In this document: positions 2,639 to 20,381 of the stretch, piece after piece | How positions within the stretch are numbered: the first letter of the stretch is position 1 | Layout of the letters: each line of letters opens with the position of its first letter | DNA from: Methanococcus vannielii SB | GTDB taxonomy: Archaea > AGJL01 > Methanococci > Methanococcales > Methanococcaceae | Length of the DNA stretch: 64,000 nucleotides | Reading direction: 5' to 3' | Assembly (NCBI RefSeq): GCF_000017165.1 | Contig: NC_009634.1 | Coordinates: 882,249-946,248 of the forward strand | Notes under the pieces: model-generated | What the model was told of the DNA's origin: nothing | The model's database searches: none | The model's input: only the letters and a program-made list of their open reading frames with translations | Position numbers and translations under genes: made by a program

Positions 2639-2899
2639 ATGGATGCCTTTGATGTTATAAAAACACCAATCGTTAGTGAAAAAACAATGAAACTCATTGA
2701 AGAAGAAAATCGATTGGTATTTTACGTTGAAAGAAAAGCTACAAAAGAAGATATTAAAGAAGCAATTAAACAGTTATTCAATGCTGAAGTTGCTGAAGTA
2801 AACACGAACATTACTCCAAAAGGACAGAAAAAAGCATACATAAAATTAAAAGACGAATACAACGCTGGAGAAGTAGCTGCAAGCTTAGGAATCTATTAA
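2639..2899 (+). CDS. rpl23: Large ribosomal subunit protein uL23
   Basis: 86 residues beginning MDAFDVIKTPIVSEKT, with the IVSEKTM motif and the NTNITPKGQKKAYIKL strand of L23 proteins. A GTG three codons upstream (2630) is in frame, but GAGGTG at 2627-2632 is better read as the ribosome binding site for the ATG at 2639. That start also gives the family length and N-terminus. It is part of the ribosomal operon, between rpl4 and rpl2. Confidence 0.95.
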   Translation: MDAFDVIKTPIVSEKTMKLIEEENRLVFYVERKATKEDIKEAIKQLFNAEVAEVNTNITPKGQKKAYIKLKDEYNAGEVAASLGIY

Positions 2900-2938
2900 T
2901 TAATTTAAGAAAACACTATTGAGTAATATGGTGATATA

Positions 2939-3661
2939 ATGGGTAAAAGACTAATTTCCCAGAATAGAGGGAGAGGTACTCCAAAATACAGATCCCCGTC
3001 CCACAAAAGGAAAGGTGAAGTTAAGTACAGAAGTTACGACGAAATGGAAAAAGTCGGAAAAGTTCTTGGAACCGTTATTGATGTACTTCATGATCCTGGA
3101 CGATCTGCACCAGTAGCAAAAGTAAGATTTGCTAATGGAGAAGAAAGATTAGTATTAATTCCAGAAGGAATTTCAGTTGGCGAGCAGATTGAATGCGGTA
3201 TAAGCGCTGAAATAAAACCTGGAAACGTTTTACCACTTGGAGAAATTCCAGAAGGTATCCCAGTATACAATATTGAAACAATCCCTGGAGACGGCGGTAA
3301 GTTAGTAAGAGCTGGTGGGTGCTACGCACACGTTGTAGCGCATGATATCGGAAAAACTATCGTTAAATTGCCTTCAGGCTACGCAAAAGTACTAAATCCT
3401 GCATGTAGAGCAACAATTGGTGTTGTTGCAGGCGGTGGAAGAAAAGAAAAACCATTCGTTAAAGCAGGTAAAAAACACCATTCATTAAGTGCTAAAGCTG
3501 TTGCATGGCCAAAGGTAAGGGGTGTTGCAATGAACGCAGTAGATCACCCTTACGGTGGAGGTAGACACCAGCACCTAGGAAAACCATCAAGCGTTTCAAG
3601 AAATACTTCCCCAGGTAGAAAAGTAGGGCATATTGCCTCAAGAAGAACCGGTAGGAAATAA
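2939..3661 (+). CDS. rpl2: Large ribosomal subunit protein uL2
   Basis: 240 residues. The N-terminal motif GKRLISQNRGRGTPKYRSPSH and the C-terminal GVAMNAVDHPYGGGRHQHLGKP, whose histidine lies near the peptidyl-transferase centre, are diagnostic of L2. The start at 2939 follows ATGGTGATATA, where GGTGAT is the ribosome binding site. It is the fourth gene of the operon, with 39 nt after rpl23. Confidence 0.97.
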   Translation: MGKRLISQNRGRGTPKYRSPSHKRKGEVKYRSYDEMEKVGKVLGTVIDVLHDPGRSAPVAKVRFANGEERLVLIPEGISVGEQIECGISAEIKPGNVLPLGEIPEGIPVYNIETIPGDGGKLVRAGGCYAHVVAHDIGKTIVKLPSGYAKVLNPACRATIGVVAGGGRKEKPFVKAGKKHHSLSAKAVAWPKVRGVAMNAVDHPYGGGRHQHLGKPSSVSRNTSPGRKVGHIASRRTGRK

Positions 3662-3701
3662 TTAATTTAAGCCCCTTCCTAAAATTTAATAAGGTGAAAA
3701 C

Positions 3702-4184
3702 ATGGCCAGACAAAAATTTAGTGGCAAAGGCGGAAAAGGAAAGTCTAAAAAAGGACAACAAAGTACAGCCCCAAGAAGAAGAGTAGAATTTAAATACAAA
3801 GGCTTTACTTTACCCGAACTCCAAGAAATGCCCATTAAAAAATTCATTGAAATCGTTCCTGCAAGACAGAGAAGAACGATGTCAAGAGGAATTACCCCTA
3901 ACCAAAGAAAATTGGTTATGAAAATTAAAAAAGCAAGAAGATTGGTAAACAGAGGCAAAGAGCCTAGAGTTATAAGGACACATTGTAGGGACTTTGTAAT
4001 AACTCCTGAAATGATAGGCCTAACAATCAGTATTTACACAGGTAAGCAGTTTAAAGAAATAAAATTAGTTGAAGAAACCCTTGGAAGATTCTTAGGTGAA
4101 ATGGCACCAACTAGAGGAATTGTACAGCACGGTTCCCCAGGTATGGGTGCTACAAGAGGTTCAATGTTCGTTCCAATTAAATAA
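3702..4184 (+). CDS. rps19: Small ribosomal subunit protein uS19
   Basis: 160 residues, the long archaeal form of S19. The basic Gly/Lys-rich N-terminus is followed by the S19 core (about residues 95-155) with RTHCRDFVITPEMIG and a C-terminal HGSPGMGATRGSMFVPIK. The start follows AAGGTGAAAAC. The operon ends here. In many archaea rpl22, rps3 and the rest of the S10/spc clusters follow, but here the next gene is convergent and unrelated, so the cluster is split. Confidence 0.96.
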   Translation: MARQKFSGKGGKGKSKKGQQSTAPRRRVEFKYKGFTLPELQEMPIKKFIEIVPARQRRTMSRGITPNQRKLVMKIKKARRLVNRGKEPRVIRTHCRDFVITPEMIGLTISIYTGKQFKEIKLVEETLGRFLGEMAPTRGIVQHGSPGMGATRGSMFVPIK

Positions 4185-4227
4185 TTGGAATTTGAAATCT
4201 CTTTTTTTATTTTTATAAAAATTTATT

Positions 4228-4276
4228 TATTAATTTAGATTTATAAATTATTTAAAGTTATAAATCTAAATTAATA
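4228..4276. terminator. 19-bp perfect inverted repeat between convergent genes
   Basis: TATTAATTTAGATTTATAA (4228-4246) is followed after 11 nt by its exact reverse complement (4258-4276). It lies between rps19 (+) and the fumarase beta gene (-), both of which end into it, with T-rich DNA on each side. It would form the same hairpin in either transcript, which suits a bidirectional terminator. A near-identical 25-nt AT sequence occurs at 9002-9026, at another convergent junction. Confidence 0.5.
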
Positions 4277-4306
4277 TTTAAAAAATAAGTTTAAAAAACT
4301 AAAAGG

Positions 4307-4879
4307 TTAGAGCTTCCGCTTTAATGAATCTAAATTTTCCTGAACCTTTTTTTCGACTTCAAAATAAAGGCTATTTTCGTGTGAATCCATTGCAACAATT
4401 AGTGGACCAAAATTTTCAACTTTTAGTTCCCAAAATGCTTCAGGCATTCCTAAGTCTAGATGGTAAACATTTTTTACTTCTTTTATACAATTTGCCAAAA
4501 GTGCTGCACAGCCACCTGGAGCTGCAAGATAAACTACCCCTAACTCCTTAAAAGTTCTCAATAACTCTTTATTCATTCCTCCTTTTCCAACTATTGCAGA
4601 AATATTTGTAATTTTTATAAAGTCTTCTTCGATATTGTTCATTCTTGCAGAGGTTGTAGGCCCAATTGCAACGCATTTCCAAATACCATTTTCTTGCTTC
4701 ATTATCGGGCCGGCATGGTAAATTACGCCATTTTCAAGGTTTATTGGTGCTTTTTTTTCTTCAATAGTTATCAAGTGAGCTTCATCTCTTCCAGTACAGA
4801 GGTTACCGGTTAAATAAACGATATCCCCTACTTTTAACTTTTTAACGTCTTCTTTTGAAATCGGGACATTTAAATTCAA
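4307..4879 (-). CDS. fumB: Fumarate hydratase class I, beta (C-terminal) subunit
   Basis: 190 residues matching the C-terminal domain of class I [4Fe-4S] fumarase/tartrate dehydratase, which is a separate subunit in methanogens. Family landmarks are LTGNLCTGRDEAH, HAGPIM, IGPTTSARM, GKGGM and APGGCAALLA. With the alpha subunit, encoded elsewhere, it interconverts fumarate and malate in the incomplete reductive TCA branch. The start is probably TTG (4879-4877), because GGTGG lies just upstream and no in-frame ATG fits the family N-terminus. Confidence 0.88.
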   Translation of the reverse strand: MNLNVPISKEDVKKLKVGDIVYLTGNLCTGRDEAHLITIEEKKAPINLENGVIYHAGPIMKQENGIWKCVAIGPTTSARMNNIEEDFIKITNISAIVGKGGMNKELLRTFKELGVVYLAAPGGCAALLANCIKEVKNVYHLDLGMPEAFWELKVENFGPLIVAMDSHENSLYFEVEKKVQENLDSLKRKL

Positions 4880-11964: not shown

Positions 11965-12447
11965 ATGATCGAACTTGAAGTCTTCCCACATAGGTATTTA
12001 AAAGCAGAAACAACTGAAAACTTCCTAAATAGTGCTTATTCATTTAGCACTGTTGAAAGAGTAGTAATACATGGAGAATCACTCCCTAAAAAAGTAGGAT
12101 ACGGTCCTGCTAAAGGGTCTCCGGTAAATCATTCTGAAAAAAAGGAAATTACTGTTAAAGGAGTTCCGGTAGAACTCAATCTTCAGGTTGGAAGATTATG
12201 GGTTTTACTAAAGGATGAAAGCGAAATTGAAAAAATCGATGAACTTTGTAAAGAACTTTTCCCATTTGGATACCGGTTAACAAAGGGTAAATTCTTAAGG
12301 GATACTCCTACAGTATCAGACTTTATAAAATACGGGGAATCTGCGGTTGAAAATATCGACCCCAAATTATTAAGTGCAACTGATCCAAGAAGTAAGTTTC
12401 AAAATTCCGTAAAAATGATTCCAAAAAGTGAAAATTCGACAGAATAA
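11965..12447 (+). CDS. mcrD: Methyl-coenzyme M reductase operon protein D
   Basis: 160 residues beginning MIELEVFPHRYLKAETTE, as in McrD proteins. McrD is not part of active MCR. It binds the enzyme during assembly or cofactor loading. Conserved features include the HGESLPKKVGYGPAKGSPVNH segment (about residues 37-53), which may contact MCR. The start follows AAGGTAGTAATCT, 11 nt after the mcrB stop, so translation is likely coupled. Codon use is less biased than in the structural mcr genes. Confidence 0.95.
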   Translation: MIELEVFPHRYLKAETTENFLNSAYSFSTVERVVIHGESLPKKVGYGPAKGSPVNHSEKKEITVKGVPVELNLQVGRLWVLLKDESEIEKIDELCKELFPFGYRLTKGKFLRDTPTVSDFIKYGESAVENIDPKLLSATDPRSKFQNSVKMIPKSENSTE

Positions 12448-12456
12448 TGTGATTTT

Positions 12457-13053
12457 ATGCCCGTAGGTAGAAAAGAACAGATTGTTGACTGTAGAGCTGT
12501 TATGGGTCTTGGTGAAGGAGGTGGACTTGCTCAAAGGGGGACTTTTGCAGAAGGACTTCGTAACGACGTGGTCGTTGTTGCAATGTCGCCTGGGAGAAGG
12601 CATATTACAAAACCCGTATGCGAAATTACCTATGGAATAAGGGAAGCAGGAATTCAAACCAGCGTTCTAGTATTGGATGCAGGAGGGGGAATTCCTTCAG
12701 ATGCTCCACAGGGAAGTTTAGGCTCAACTTTTGGGCTTAAACCTGATGAAGCACGACAAGTTAATCGACATAAATTATGTGTAATTCACTTTGGAAACGT
12801 AAAAAGTCATATAATCTATAAAGCTAGGTTATTCTTAAAGTACGTGACCATTCCTACAATTATAGTTTGTCAGTCTCCAGTGGACATGGAAGACTTTGCA
12901 AAAATTGGAATTAAGACCCTAGACGTAATGCCTTTAGAACCTAAAACTGAGGGCACTATTGTCGAAATTATTACAGGCGTAGTAAGGGGGGAATCTTCCC
13001 CACAAAAAAAGATTGATGAAATCATAGAAAGCATAAAAAAACATTTAGGTTAA
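12457..13053 (+). CDS. mcrC: Methyl-coenzyme M reductase operon protein C
   Basis: 198 residues starting [32 protein letters not shown], typical of McrC. McrC is a component of the ATP-dependent complex that reductively activates MCR (Ni(II) to Ni(I)). The [29 protein letters not shown] region is conserved in the family. It begins 9 nt after mcrD with GTGATTTT before the ATG, so translation is probably coupled. Confidence 0.95.
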
Positions 13054-13062
13054 GGTGATCTT

Positions 13063-13845
13063 ATGGCATATAAGCCTCAGTTCTACCCTGGAGCAACAAA
13101 AGTTGCTGAAAACAGACGAAATCACTTAAATCCAAACTACGAATTGGAAAAATTAAGAGAAATCCCAGATGAAGACGTTGTAAAAATCATGGGACACAGG
13201 CAGCCTGGTGAAGACTACAAAACAGTTCACCCACCATTAGAAGAAATGGACATGCCAGCTGACTACGTAAGAGACTTAGTAGAGCCATTAAACGGTGCTA
13301 AGGAAGGACACAGGGTTAGATACATCCAGTTTGCTGACTCAATGTATTTTGCTCCTGCTCAACCATACGACAGGTCAAGATTGTACATGATCAGATTAAG
13401 GGGAGTAGATGCAGGTACGCTCTCAGGAAGACAAGTTGTTGAATGTAGAGAAAGTGACCTTGAAGAATTCTCCAAAAACTTGCTTATGGATACCGAACTC
13501 TTTGACCCTGCAACATCAGGAGTAAGAGGTGCAACTGTACACGGCCACTCCTTAAGATTAGATGAAAACGGAATGATGTTTGACGCATTACAAAGATGTG
13601 TGTTCGACGAAAAAACCGGACACGTAATGTATGTAAAAGACCAGGTTGGAAAGCCACTCGACCAGCCAGTTGACGTTGGAGAACCAATGCCTGAAGCAAA
13701 ATTAAGAGAAATCACAACCATCTACAGAAAAGATGGTATCGCAATGAGAACAGACCCTGAAGTTATTGAAGTTGTAAAGAGAATCCACAGAGCAAGAACT
13801 CTTGGTGGATACATCCCTACAAACGAAATATTCAAAGGATTATAA
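13063..13845 (+). CDS. mcrG: Methyl-coenzyme M reductase, gamma subunit
   Basis: 260 residues beginning MAYKPQFYPGATKVAENRR, the standard gamma-subunit N-terminus. The VRGATVHGHSLRLDENGMMFD segment (about residues 150-170) carries the conserved histidine near F430. It is the small structural subunit of MCR. The start follows AAGGTGATCTT, 9 nt after mcrC, and codon use is strongly biased, as for mcrB and mcrA. Confidence 0.97.
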   Translation: MAYKPQFYPGATKVAENRRNHLNPNYELEKLREIPDEDVVKIMGHRQPGEDYKTVHPPLEEMDMPADYVRDLVEPLNGAKEGHRVRYIQFADSMYFAPAQPYDRSRLYMIRLRGVDAGTLSGRQVVECRESDLEEFSKNLLMDTELFDPATSGVRGATVHGHSLRLDENGMMFDALQRCVFDEKTGHVMYVKDQVGKPLDQPVDVGEPMPEAKLREITTIYRKDGIAMRTDPEVIEVVKRIHRARTLGGYIPTNEIFKGL

Positions 13846-13892
13846 TTAATTCTTAAATTAAAAAAAACCTCTTAAGCCATTGAGGTGAACTT

Positions 13893-15554
13893 ATGGAAGC
13901 TGAAAAAAGATTATTCTTGAAAGCATTAAAGGAAAAATTCGAAGAAGATCCAAAGGAAAAATACACAAAATTCTATACCTACGGCGGTTGGGAACAATCT
14001 GCTAGGAAAAGAGAATTTGTTGCAGCTAACGAAAAAGTTTTAGCTGAAAAAAGACAGGGAGTTCCACTTTACAACCCTGATATTGGTGTTCCTTTAGGAC
14101 AGAGAAAGTTAATGCCTTACAAATTGTCAGGAACTGACTCATACTGTGAAGGTGACGACTTACACTTCATGAACAACGCTGCTATCCAACAGTTATGGGA
14201 CGATATCAGAAGAACAGTTGTTGTAGGTATGGACACTGCTCACTCAGTTTTAGAAAAAAGATTGGGTGTAGAAGTAACTCCTGAAACAATCAACGAATAC
14301 ATGCACACAATTAACCACGCACTTTCAGGTGGTGCAGTTGTTCAAGAACACATGGTTGAAGTTCACCCTTCCCTTGCATGGGATTCATACGCTAGAATCT
14401 TCACTGGTGACGATGAATTAGCTGCGGAATTAGACAGTAGATTCTTAATTGACATTAACAAATTGTTCCCAGCAGAACAAGCTGAAGCTTTGAAAAAAGC
14501 TATCGGTAAAAAAACATACCAAGTATCAAGGGTACCATCACTCGTAGGTAGAGTATGTGACGGCGGTACAATCTCAAGATGGTCTGCAATGCAGATTGGA
14601 ATGTCATTCATTACCGCATACAAACTTTGTGCAGGAGAAGCTGCAACAGCTGACTTCTCATATGCTTCAAAACACGCTGACGTAATTCAGATGGGTAACG
14701 CTTTACCTGGAAGAAGAGCAAGAGGTCCAAACGAGCCAGGGGGAATCCAGTTCGGTATCCTTTCAGACGTTGTACAAACTACAAGAGTTTCAGACGACCC
14801 AGTTGAGCAGTCATTAGAAGTAGTAGCAGCTGGTGCTGCATTATATGACCAAATATGGCTTGGTGCATACATGTCTGGTGGCGTAGGTTTCACACAATAC
14901 GCTACAGCAGCATACACCGACGATATCTTGGACGATTTCTCATACTATGCACTTGACTACGTAGAGAAAAAATACGGTAGAATGGGAACTAAAGCTACAA
15001 TGGACGTAGTAGAAGACATTGCAAGTGAAGTTACACTCTACTCATTAGAACAGTACGATGAATACCCCGCATTATTAGAAGACCACTTTGGTGGATCACA
15101 GAGAGCTGCAGTTGCTGCTGCTGCATCCGGTATCGGTGTATGTATGGCAACAGGTAACTCAAACGCTGGTGTAAACGGCTGGTACTTATCACAAATATTA
15201 CACAAAGAATACCACAGTAGACTTGGATTCTATGGTTACGACTTGCAGGACCAATGTGGTGCTTCAAACTCACTCGCAATCAGAAACGACGAATCTGCAC
15301 CTCTTGAATTAAGGGGGCCTAACTACCCTAACTACGCAATGAACGTAGGTCACCAGGGAGAATACGCAGGTATTGCACAAGCTGCTCACTCAGCAAGAGG
15401 AGATGCATTTGCAATGAGTGCATTAATTAAAGTTGCATTCGCTGACCCAATGCTTGTATTTGACTTTTCAAAACCAAGAAAAGAATTTGCAAGAGGAGCA
15501 TTAAGAGAATTCGACGCTGCAGGAGAAAGAGACGTTATCTTACCTGCAAAATAA
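13893..15554 (+). CDS. mcrA: Methyl-coenzyme M reductase, alpha subunit
   Basis: 553 residues, the catalytic subunit. Equivalents of the known special residues (Methanothermobacter numbering in brackets) are present: Q151 (147, Ni-F430 axial ligand), H261 (257, N-methyl-His), R275 (271, 5-methyl-Arg, the Mmp10 target), Q403 (400, sometimes 2-methyl-Gln), G448 (445, thioglycine) and C455 (452, S-methyl-Cys). Only the residues are visible; the modifications are inferred from the family. The start follows GAGGTGAACTT. It is the last gene of the mcr operon and is followed by a hairpin terminator. Confidence 0.98.
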
Positions 15555-18307: not shown

Positions 18308-18634
18308 ATGGAGATAGTCAAAGTATGTCCTGAAATCCACGTTGTAATGGACATTGATTCAGGTTTAATAGCTGAAATGAGAAAAGACATTCTCGTTGTA
18401 GATTTACACCCTGTTGAAGAACAAATTAACAAATTAGCATACTTTGCAAAAGCATTGGAAAATTCACTTGACCCTAGAAATGCGCCAATGAAATCATACA
18501 AAGGAAGAGATGGGACCTATAAAACTGGAGGTCTATTTCAAGGAATGTTCTTTGGTTTCTGGGTAACTATGTCAATTCTTGTTCTCGTAACAATATTGAC
18601 TATTAAAATGAATTTAAGCTTAATAGGGTTGTAA
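18308..18634 (+). CDS. mtrB: Tetrahydromethanopterin S-methyltransferase, subunit B
   Basis: 108 residues. A soluble N-terminal part ([23 protein letters not shown]) is followed by one C-terminal membrane helix (about residues 78-105, [21 protein letters not shown]). It is a small stalk subunit of Mtr. The start follows AAGGTGGTAAA, 9 nt after mtrC. Confidence 0.95.
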
Positions 18635-18640
18635 TCTAAT

Positions 18641-19190
18641 AGGAGGTGCAAACAATGGCAAATAAAAAAGCCCCTGCAGCAGGATGGCCTGTTGCGAACG
18701 GTGAATATGTAGTGGGGAACCCTGAAAGTTGTGTTGCAGTTGTTACACTAGGTTCCCACGGTTTAGACCAAGCTGCTATTGACGCAGGTGCAGCTATTTC
18801 AGGGCCATGCCACACAGAAAACTTAGGAATCGAAAAAGTTGTTGCAAACTACATTTCAAACCCAAACATTAGATTTATGATAATTGCAGGATCTGAAGTT
18901 CAAGGGCATATTACAGGTCAGTGCTTAAAAGCATTATATGAAAACGGAATCGGTGACGATGGTGGTATCATCGGCGCTAAAGGTGCAATTCCATTCATGG
19001 AAAACGTAGGAAAAGAGCCTGTTGGAAGATTCCAAAAACAGATTGTTGAATGCGTCAATTTGATTGATGTTGAAGACAAGGGAAAAATTACTGAAGCAAT
19101 TAAAAACTGCATTTCAAAAGATCCTGGGGCACTTGAAGAAGATGCAATGGTTGTCGAATTAGAAGGCGGTAAAAAGGTTGCTGGCGAAGA
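18641..19190 (+). repeat. 550-bp direct repeat, copy 1 (mtrA ribosome binding site and codons 1-178)
   Basis: The sequence from AGGAGGTGCAAACA (18641) to GGCGAAGA (19190) is repeated at 19377-19926, offset 736 bp. I compared both copies base by base and found no difference. Identity begins at the ribosome binding site, covers the corrinoid-binding domain, and stops sharply before the mtrA membrane anchor. Confidence 0.9.
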
Positions 19191-19374
19191 TTCAACTACA
19201 ATAAAACCTACATCACCAGAAATGGCTTTATTGGAAGCTAGAATGAGAATTATCTCAGAAAAAATGAATGAAGCTGCAATGGTTGCTAAATTCAATTCCG
19301 GATATTATAATGGAAAAATCCAAGGTATTGCAATAGGTTTATTCCTTTCAATATTGGTATTCTCATTACTCTAA
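18655..19374 (+). CDS. mtrA: Tetrahydromethanopterin S-methyltransferase, corrinoid subunit A
   Basis: 239 residues from the ATG at 18655, which follows AGGAGGTG. A GTG at 18646 is in frame but belongs to the ribosome binding site. The cytoplasmic domain (1-175) binds the corrinoid that carries the methyl group between H4MPT and coenzyme M; H85 in [10 protein letters not shown] probably matches the conserved histidine of MtrA. A linker leads to one C-terminal membrane helix (about 220-239). The first 550 bp including the ribosome binding site are perfectly repeated in the next gene. Confidence 0.96.
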
Positions 19375-19376
19375 GG

Positions 19377-19926
19377 AGGAGGTGCAAACAATGGCAAATA
19401 AAAAAGCCCCTGCAGCAGGATGGCCTGTTGCGAACGGTGAATATGTAGTGGGGAACCCTGAAAGTTGTGTTGCAGTTGTTACACTAGGTTCCCACGGTTT
19501 AGACCAAGCTGCTATTGACGCAGGTGCAGCTATTTCAGGGCCATGCCACACAGAAAACTTAGGAATCGAAAAAGTTGTTGCAAACTACATTTCAAACCCA
19601 AACATTAGATTTATGATAATTGCAGGATCTGAAGTTCAAGGGCATATTACAGGTCAGTGCTTAAAAGCATTATATGAAAACGGAATCGGTGACGATGGTG
19701 GTATCATCGGCGCTAAAGGTGCAATTCCATTCATGGAAAACGTAGGAAAAGAGCCTGTTGGAAGATTCCAAAAACAGATTGTTGAATGCGTCAATTTGAT
19801 TGATGTTGAAGACAAGGGAAAAATTACTGAAGCAATTAAAAACTGCATTTCAAAAGATCCTGGGGCACTTGAAGAAGATGCAATGGTTGTCGAATTAGAA
19901 GGCGGTAAAAAGGTTGCTGGCGAAGA
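19377..19926 (+). repeat. 550-bp direct repeat, copy 2 (start of the mtrA-mtrF fusion)
   Basis: Exact copy of 18641-19190. The left junction is just after the mtrA stop (19372-19374), and the right junction is directly before AGAAGGTGGCCTC, which looks like the old mtrF ribosome binding site. Perfect identity means a recent duplication, ongoing gene conversion, or an assembly effect. Confidence 0.9.
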
Positions 19927-20152
19927 AGAAGGTGGCCTCATGATTGAAGGTATCCCTACTATCGCAGAACCAGATATTGAATCAATTACAAACTTGAATG
20001 AAAAACTTGAATACAAAGTGGGCTTAATGACCAGAGATATTGGTTTAGCTTCCGGTGTTCAATCTGAAACTGTTACTGGTTTAATGTACGGTGCACTATT
20101 TGCCGTAGCATTAATCGGAATCCCAATAGCATTGAAATTCCTGATGGGGTGA
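19391..20152 (+). CDS. mtrF: MtrA corrinoid domain fused in frame to MtrF
   Basis: 253 residues from the ATG at 19391. Residues 1-178 are identical to MtrA, including H85. From about residue 184 ([15 protein letters not shown]) the protein is MtrF-like: a soluble stretch with [13 protein letters not shown] and a membrane helix (about 229-250, [21 protein letters not shown]). MtrF is usually a stand-alone subunit of about 70 residues. Codon 184 is an ATG (19940) preceded by AAGGTGG, so a separate 70-residue MtrF could also be made by internal initiation. I recall MtrA-MtrF fusions being mentioned in the MtrF domain family, but could not check. Whether the fused domain carries corrinoid is unknown. 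Confidence 0.88.
19931..19942 (+). promoter_or_regulatory. Internal ribosome binding site and ATG for stand-alone MtrF
   Basis: GGTGGCCTCATG: GGTGG is a good ribosome binding site for this genome and lies 4 nt before an in-frame ATG at 19940. Initiation here would give a 70-residue protein of normal MtrF length. It begins just after the repeat boundary, suggesting that the duplication was placed in front of an intact mtrF. Confidence 0.5.
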
Positions 20153-20156
20153 TTAG

Positions 20157-20381
20157 ATGGCTGAAATTCCAACTGTAGTCACACCTACAAAAGACTACAA
20201 AAAATTACAGGAAAAACTTGATGAAATTGAAAGCACCGTTGAAAATACCAACGCAGAGATAATCCAGAGAACTGGTAAAAAAGCTGGAAGGGACGTAGGT
20301 ATTGCATACGGACTCGTAATCGGATTTATATTCGTATACGTTCTCGGAAATGTGTTACCATTATTTGAGTTAATAAAATAA
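20157..20381 (+). CDS. mtrG: Tetrahydromethanopterin S-methyltransferase, subunit G
   Basis: 74 residues. A helical, probably coiled soluble part (residues 12-45, LQEKLDEIESTVENTNAEI) precedes one membrane helix (about 52-72, IAYGLVIGFIFVYVLGNVLPL). It is a small subunit of the Mtr complex. It starts 4 nt after the preceding stop, with GGGGTGATTAG as ribosome binding site overlapping that stop, so translation is likely coupled. Confidence 0.95.
   Translation: MAEIPTVVTPTKDYKKLQEKLDEIESTVENTNAEIIQRTGKKAGRDVGIAYGLVIGFIFVYVLGNVLPLFELIK

Follow-up and report, generated by a model that had tools for sequence, protein, structure and literature searches.

Organization of the mtr locus

The window considered here, a 64,000-nucleotide stretch of the Methanococcus vannielii SB genome, carries two tandem MtrA genes inside the mtr operon, between mtrB and mtrG (Table 1). 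A base-by-base comparison revealed a repeat of 550 bp with 0 mismatches between its copies and a period of 736 bp, the edges being sharp, with no additional matching base on the left or on the right. This agrees in every position with the tandem copies reported in a first-pass annotation of the same DNA. The repeat begins 14 nt 5' of the ATG at position 18655, with the ribosome binding site (RBS) included, and ends after 178 codons and 2 nt of mtrA. It constitutes the entire homologous length of mtrA-1 and the fusion gene: upstream, the homology consists of the RBS region alone, and the anchors encoded 3' of the two copies are unrelated sequences (the MtrA anchor and MtrF, respectively). Chance is ruled out as a source of this identity by its length alone. 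In the whole genome (one contig of 1,720,048 bp), two MtrA domains were detected, both at this locus.

Table 1. Features of the M. vannielii mtr locus, in positions of the window.
Feature	Position	Strand	Evidence
mtrB, upstream neighbour	18308..18634	+	PF05440 E 3e-35
Repeat copy 1: RBS, corrinoid domain, Connectase site and linker start of mtrA-1	18641..19190	+	identity to 19377-19926
mtrA-1: corrinoid domain with its own stalk/transmembrane anchor, 239 aa	18655..19374	+	PF04208 E 2e-80; TIGR01111 E 8e-109; PDB 5l8x E 1.4e-91
His85 codon, copy 1, expected lower axial ligand of the corrinoid cobalt	18907..18909	+	invariant in 19/19 aligned fusions
Connectase recognition sequence, copy 1, residues 150-169, within the repeat	19102..19161	+	motif; matches MtrA peptide in PDB 6zw0
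MtrA-specific linker end, stalk helix and transmembrane anchor; only the first 2 bases inside the repeat	19189..19374	+	
Repeat copy 2: the same stretch, 5' end of the mtrA-mtrF fusion	19377..19926	+	identity to 18641-19190
mtrA-2a: MtrA corrinoid domain in frame with MtrF, 253 aa	19391..20152	+	PF04208 E 2.6e-80; PF09472 E 2.1e-21; TIGR02507 E 1.3e-29
His85 codon, copy 2, expected cobalt ligand retained in the fusion	19643..19645	+	repeat identity; 19/19 aligned fusions
Connectase recognition sequence, copy 2, identical to copy 1	19838..19897	+	repeat identity and motif
MtrF part of the fusion, outside the repeat	19949..20152	+	PF09472 across residues 187-248
mtrG, downstream neighbour	20157..20381	+	PF04210 E 6e-29

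The second gene (mtrA-2a) lacks the MtrA anchor and is joined to MtrF instead, as detected with PF09472 and TIGR02507. Profile matches assign the first 173 residues of the fusion to MtrA and the sequence from residue 187 onwards to MtrF, and no separate mtrF is present between the fusion and mtrG. The first-pass annotation had proposed that the second copy runs in frame into an MtrF-like C-terminus, and that two corrinoid domains with different membrane anchors are encoded; the profile matches bear out both proposals. The corrinoid domain and the invariant His85, a residue which also serves as ligand in M. mazei MtrA (PMC12774963), are retained in both copies, and cobamide binding is predicted for each on the basis of sequence. 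An AlphaFold model of the fusion, for which 19 close homologues served as input, was of poor quality, with a mean pLDDT of 39, and was set aside. Positions 11965-15554 of the window, which adjoin the mtr operon on its upstream side, hold ORFs resembling an mcr operon, named by sequence impression only.

Published status of the gene pair

The window locus is a member of the Methanococcales mtrA-1/mtrA-2a pair, the core of which is already known. A fusion of the MtrF gene to MtrA was described for M. maripaludis in 2007 (PMC1852104). The study of Wang et al. (2015; PMC4632066), with M. vannielii SB in its species list, describes mtrA-1 and mtrA-2, with an A-F fusion in Methanococcales and an A-G fusion in Methanomicrobiales. 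Paralogue identity within Methanococcales species is given there as 99.7% on average, with clustering by species, support from GENECONV and three copies in M. maripaludis X1, and the conclusion drawn is a gene conversion lasting more than 2 billion years; the essentiality of both genes is also cited. The same gene-conversion case was found again in a 2018 genome-wide study (PMC6053082). When compared to the pair in these two studies, the operon, the fusion and the concerted evolution by conversion are all the same, and the window differs in nothing. The remark in the first-pass annotation that MtrA-MtrF fusions seem to be noted in the family is backed by the literature (PMC4632066, PMC1852104). 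Its choice of the identical DNA as the striking point stands as regards the identity itself, but not as regards novelty, since Wang et al. (2015) had already made this point in print. Within its available part, the latter work holds neither the Connectase site nor the MtrA with separate MtrF and anchor-only MtrA with fusion states seen here in the same order. The locus is a clear example of concerted evolution over a very long time, affecting the energy-conserving methyl-transfer step of hydrogenotrophic methanogenesis, and this too is in print; beyond this published core, it is the stoichiometry and the wiring of Mtr that would matter.

Origin of the sequence identity

The first-pass annotation had left gene conversion, a recent duplication and an assembly error as options, and had proposed comparing the locus and the synonymous divergence of its copies across other genomes. 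The mtr loci were fetched from 31 Methanococcales genomes, 11 of which (window included) carry both genes. The corrinoid domains within a genome show 0-3 differences in their first 480 bases in 10 of these 11, with a synonymous difference of 0-0.019, versus 0.14-0.70 for most species pairs (0.35-0.40 for G000 against G015 or G017, with distant pairs reaching 0.70); between genomes, values near zero are confined to those most closely related, for example G018, G019 and G020. The nucleotide tree groups each genome's own copies with one another, support being weak inside the near-identical G018/G019 pair. The 736-bp spacing is common to G000, G015, G016 and G017, which indicates that both duplication and fusion took place before these genomes diverged, and an old duplication combined with present identity points to gene conversion. 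On these comparisons, the identity is attributed to gene conversion acting on an old duplication, and to neither a recent duplication nor an assembly error, so that only one of the three options is upheld.

A recent duplication confined to the window lineage, leaving too little time for silent changes, would account for the 0 differences over 550 bp. However, other Methanococcus species have the same fusion, junction and 736-bp spacing and yet show 35-40% synonymous divergence from the window in their corrinoid domains, the species have diverged from one another in both the MtrF part and the MtrA anchor, and 11 independent duplications giving the same fusion would be needed, which renders this origin very unlikely. 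Still less probable is an assembly error, in the form of a false duplication or of a consensus pasted into both copies. Assemblers can collapse or smooth exact repeats of this length, and the assemblies of two relatives (G001 and G034) are suspicious, but each copy in the window continues into unique sequence of its own (the MtrA anchor in one case, MtrF in the other), the same arrangement recurs in ten other independent assemblies, several of them single-contig, and the gene pair has been published for cultured species. The idea that selection rather than conversion holds the copies identical, the same protein being needed twice, can draw on the high conservation of the protein, with a mean column identity of 81% among 19 aligned fusions; considering that silent sites vary between species (pS up to 0.70) and are nevertheless identical within a genome, its probability is close to negligible.

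Conversion on the old pair does not appear to be permanent. In G016, the copies differ at 54 of 480 bases, with a nearly identical centre, diverged ends and a large proportion of amino-acid replacements (pS 0.19, pN 0.08), and the Connectase site of mtrA-1 is broken, reading QDPDA in place of KDPGA. To judge from this pattern, G016 is a natural escape in which the mtrA-1 copy has left conversion, as expected if conversion can lapse. Copies with 0/480 differences were found in G167 and G211 (Methanomicrobiales-type, A + A-G) and in G279 (Methanocella-like, A + A-F), indicating that homogenization recurs in unrelated lineages, as published. Connectase was also considered as a general driver of homogenization, and this was rejected, as the copies of G279 are identical and a PF09894 match is absent from this genome.

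Architectures across Methanococcales

The 31 Methanococcales loci occur in four states: MtrA together with the MtrA-MtrF fusion (11 loci, window included), MtrA with a separate MtrF (11), the fusion with an anchor-only MtrA (7) and the fusion alone (2). The corrinoid domain may thus be placed on MtrA, on MtrA and MtrF, or on MtrF alone, all inside one archaeal order. Both loci with the fusion alone are doubtful, G034 being a 120-contig draft and G001 having a tandem copy at the boundary. The latter, in a single-contig genome, is a perfect 898-bp tandem mtrC'-mtrB copy (L061, positions 2817-4612, reverse strand) whose end coincides with the boundary of the mtrA repeat; mtrA-1 is absent there, and the arrangement could be either a misassembly or a real unequal exchange.

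The seven genomes with an anchor-only MtrA (G021, G024, G025, G026, G028, G030 and G032; loci L048, L051-L054, L056 and L057) form one clade, with a support of 100 in a tree of MtrE, D, C, H and G, and two of them (G021 and G028) are 99% complete and in few contigs. In all seven, the MtrF fusion is the sole MtrA match in the genome, from which it follows that an MtrF-borne corrinoid domain can be the sole carrier. The MtrA of these relatives has lost its corrinoid domain, a form which is apparently unreported. By analogy, this state suggests that the window fusion also works as a carrier, for which it constitutes the best available evidence. Within the open-access literature searched, this order-wide survey of architectures appears to be new, as does the divided Connectase site of the same clade, discussed below.

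In the window's own family, G023 (L050) has a strongly diverged set of MtrB, MtrA anchor, MtrF and MtrG, of a type otherwise seen in another family (L063, L064, L067, L068 and L071); a horizontal transfer of these stalk genes is possible.

Connectase sites

Connectase is a ligase whose cleavage is reversible (PMC10154401), with a recognition site of 7+13 residues (PMC11231263). The enzyme cuts the KDPGA of MtrA between D and P, becomes joined to the fragment that ends in KD, and then religates this fragment onto a partner starting with PGA plus 10 residues (PMC10154401, PMC11231263). Both copies in the window hold the complete site, comprising KDPGA and the subsequent 10-residue tag and matching the peptide of PDB 6zw0, and a protein homologous to M. 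jannaschii Connectase over its full length is encoded elsewhere in the genome (PF09894, E 6.8e-58; PDB 6zvz, E 4.6e-75), a combination which may be a new point. Since His85 and the full site are found in both domains, Connectase could cut and rejoin either one, and an exchange of domains between the MtrA and MtrF anchors would follow from its known chemistry. The known Connectase-MtrA system (PDB 6zw0; PMC10154401, PMC11231263, PMC11961121) resembles the present one in the KDPGA plus 10-residue site and in the full-length Connectase homologue, the difference being that two substrates with an identical site and two anchors occur here; no report of tests of exchange between two such substrates was found in the open-access literature. 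KDPGA on its own was rejected as a mark of Connectase use, given its conservation in genomes that lack a PF09894 match, and the persistence of both tag and KDPGA in genomes without Connectase points to some further role for them too.

The seven anchor-only genes are open frames of 106-136 codons with an RBS-like sequence, encoding a leader of 21-43 residues followed by [FL][ED]NPGAxDE[ED]PMILDLEGG and then the anchor. Mean identity is 35% in the leader (20% between the two subclades) versus 94% in the tag, and pN/pS over the tag, 13 codons in one clade, is 0.045, compared to 0.19 for the fusion of the same seven genomes and 0.23-0.28 for intact MtrA. These values indicate that the PGA half of the Connectase site is under strong selection in the anchor-only genes, where P1 is Asn, not Asp, in 7/7. 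The fusion of this clade keeps SKDPGA (donor half SKD/PGA), its tag having decayed to PGAT..EEI, with EEI in the place where every other tag has three hydrophobic residues. A Connectase gene is present in six of the seven genomes, the seventh being a draft. In families f65 and f67 of another phylum, what comes after the fusion is a bare, tagless anchor (9/9 loci read), and PF09894 matched 0/15 genomes of these families and 0/2 Methanocella-like genomes; this contrast between phyla amounts to one comparison.

The pattern fits a Connectase site split into a donor half, on the fusion, and an acceptor half, PGAxDE[ED]PMILDL, on the anchor gene, and a Connectase-mediated transfer is suggested. More tentatively, and with considerable doubt, it may be proposed that the corrinoid domain made on MtrF is passed on to the MtrA anchor by Connectase, with mature MtrA arising by trans-ligation from two genes, and that in the two-site organism of the window the same enzyme swaps domains between the two anchors. 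The comparison offers Connectase a concrete and testable candidate job, namely the transfer of corrinoid domains between anchors.

Proposed working of the complex

In the M. mazei Mtr complex, the stalk helices of A, B, F and G are nearly parallel and project into the cytosol, in three copies, and the MtrA corrinoid domain sits on a long flexible linker (PMC12774963). With the helices in this near-parallel arrangement, an N-terminal domain on MtrF would neighbour that of MtrA. An old duplication put a second MtrA corrinoid domain in frame with mtrF, and recurrent gene conversion has since kept the domain copies and the RBS identical in each lineage while the anchors evolve separately, as the comparison between species shows. 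Corrinoid domains would most likely be borne on both the MtrA and MtrF stalk helices, giving at most two per protomer, or six per trimer, and both may shuttle methyl groups from MtrH to MtrCDE and back. Having a second carrier could raise the local corrinoid concentration, and conversion could keep both copies fitted to the same partners. The presence of motif and enzyme suggests that Connectase could cut and rejoin either domain, exchanging them between the anchors; that it does so to swap or repair domains would be a speculative extension. Overall, an old pair homogenized by recurrent conversion, with both stalks likely carrying corrinoid domains which Connectase could exchange, is regarded as a highly probable account of the locus. 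Within it, a second corrinoid per protomer is made much more plausible by the seven MtrF-only relatives. No biochemical or proteomic evidence for MtrA and MtrA-MtrF together in one complex was found in the open-access literature, and a proteome paper on M. maripaludis lists MtrA (MMP1564) and is silent on the fusion.

It could also be argued that the fusion is a dosage device, in which Connectase or a protease frees the corrinoid domain and MtrF works as usual, with no domain tethered to it. A complete Connectase site does lie between the domain and MtrF, Connectase is encoded, and 11 further genomes in the order manage with mtrA and mtrF as separate genes. However, Connectase is a ligase with reversible cleavage (PMC10154401), and genomes of another phylum without a Connectase match also fuse the domain to MtrF, with no second MtrA domain seen in the operon, which implies that tethering to MtrF can serve the enzyme. 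A dosage device is thus considered unlikely, and corrinoid domains carried on both stalks remain the preferred reading.

Related systems in other lineages

The mtrA-2b gene of Methanomicrobiales also places a second MtrA domain on another stalk subunit, with homogenized copies (0-51 differences per 480 bases in four loci), but its partner is MtrG, and mtrF stands between the two genes. The [AF]F operons of TACK, Methanoliparia and ANME-1 (PMC9982363) share the fusion of the MtrA domain to MtrF and differ in having a single corrinoid domain. The published description of such operons is one of mtrA joined to a duplicate mtrF, with mtrF next in line (PMC9982363), whereas in the nine loci of another phylum read here (L080-L088; genomes G318, G331, G452, G522, G277, G285, G304, G400 and G355) the small ORF behind the fusion gives a better match to the profile of the MtrA anchor than to that of MtrF in 9/9 cases. 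The MtrF profile also matches weakly within frames of 238-243 codons beside mtrF in G079, G099, G119, G139, G037 and G059. In at least two of these genomes (G139 and G037), the weak match corresponds to the C-terminal MtrA anchor, which points to a distant homology between MtrF and this anchor.
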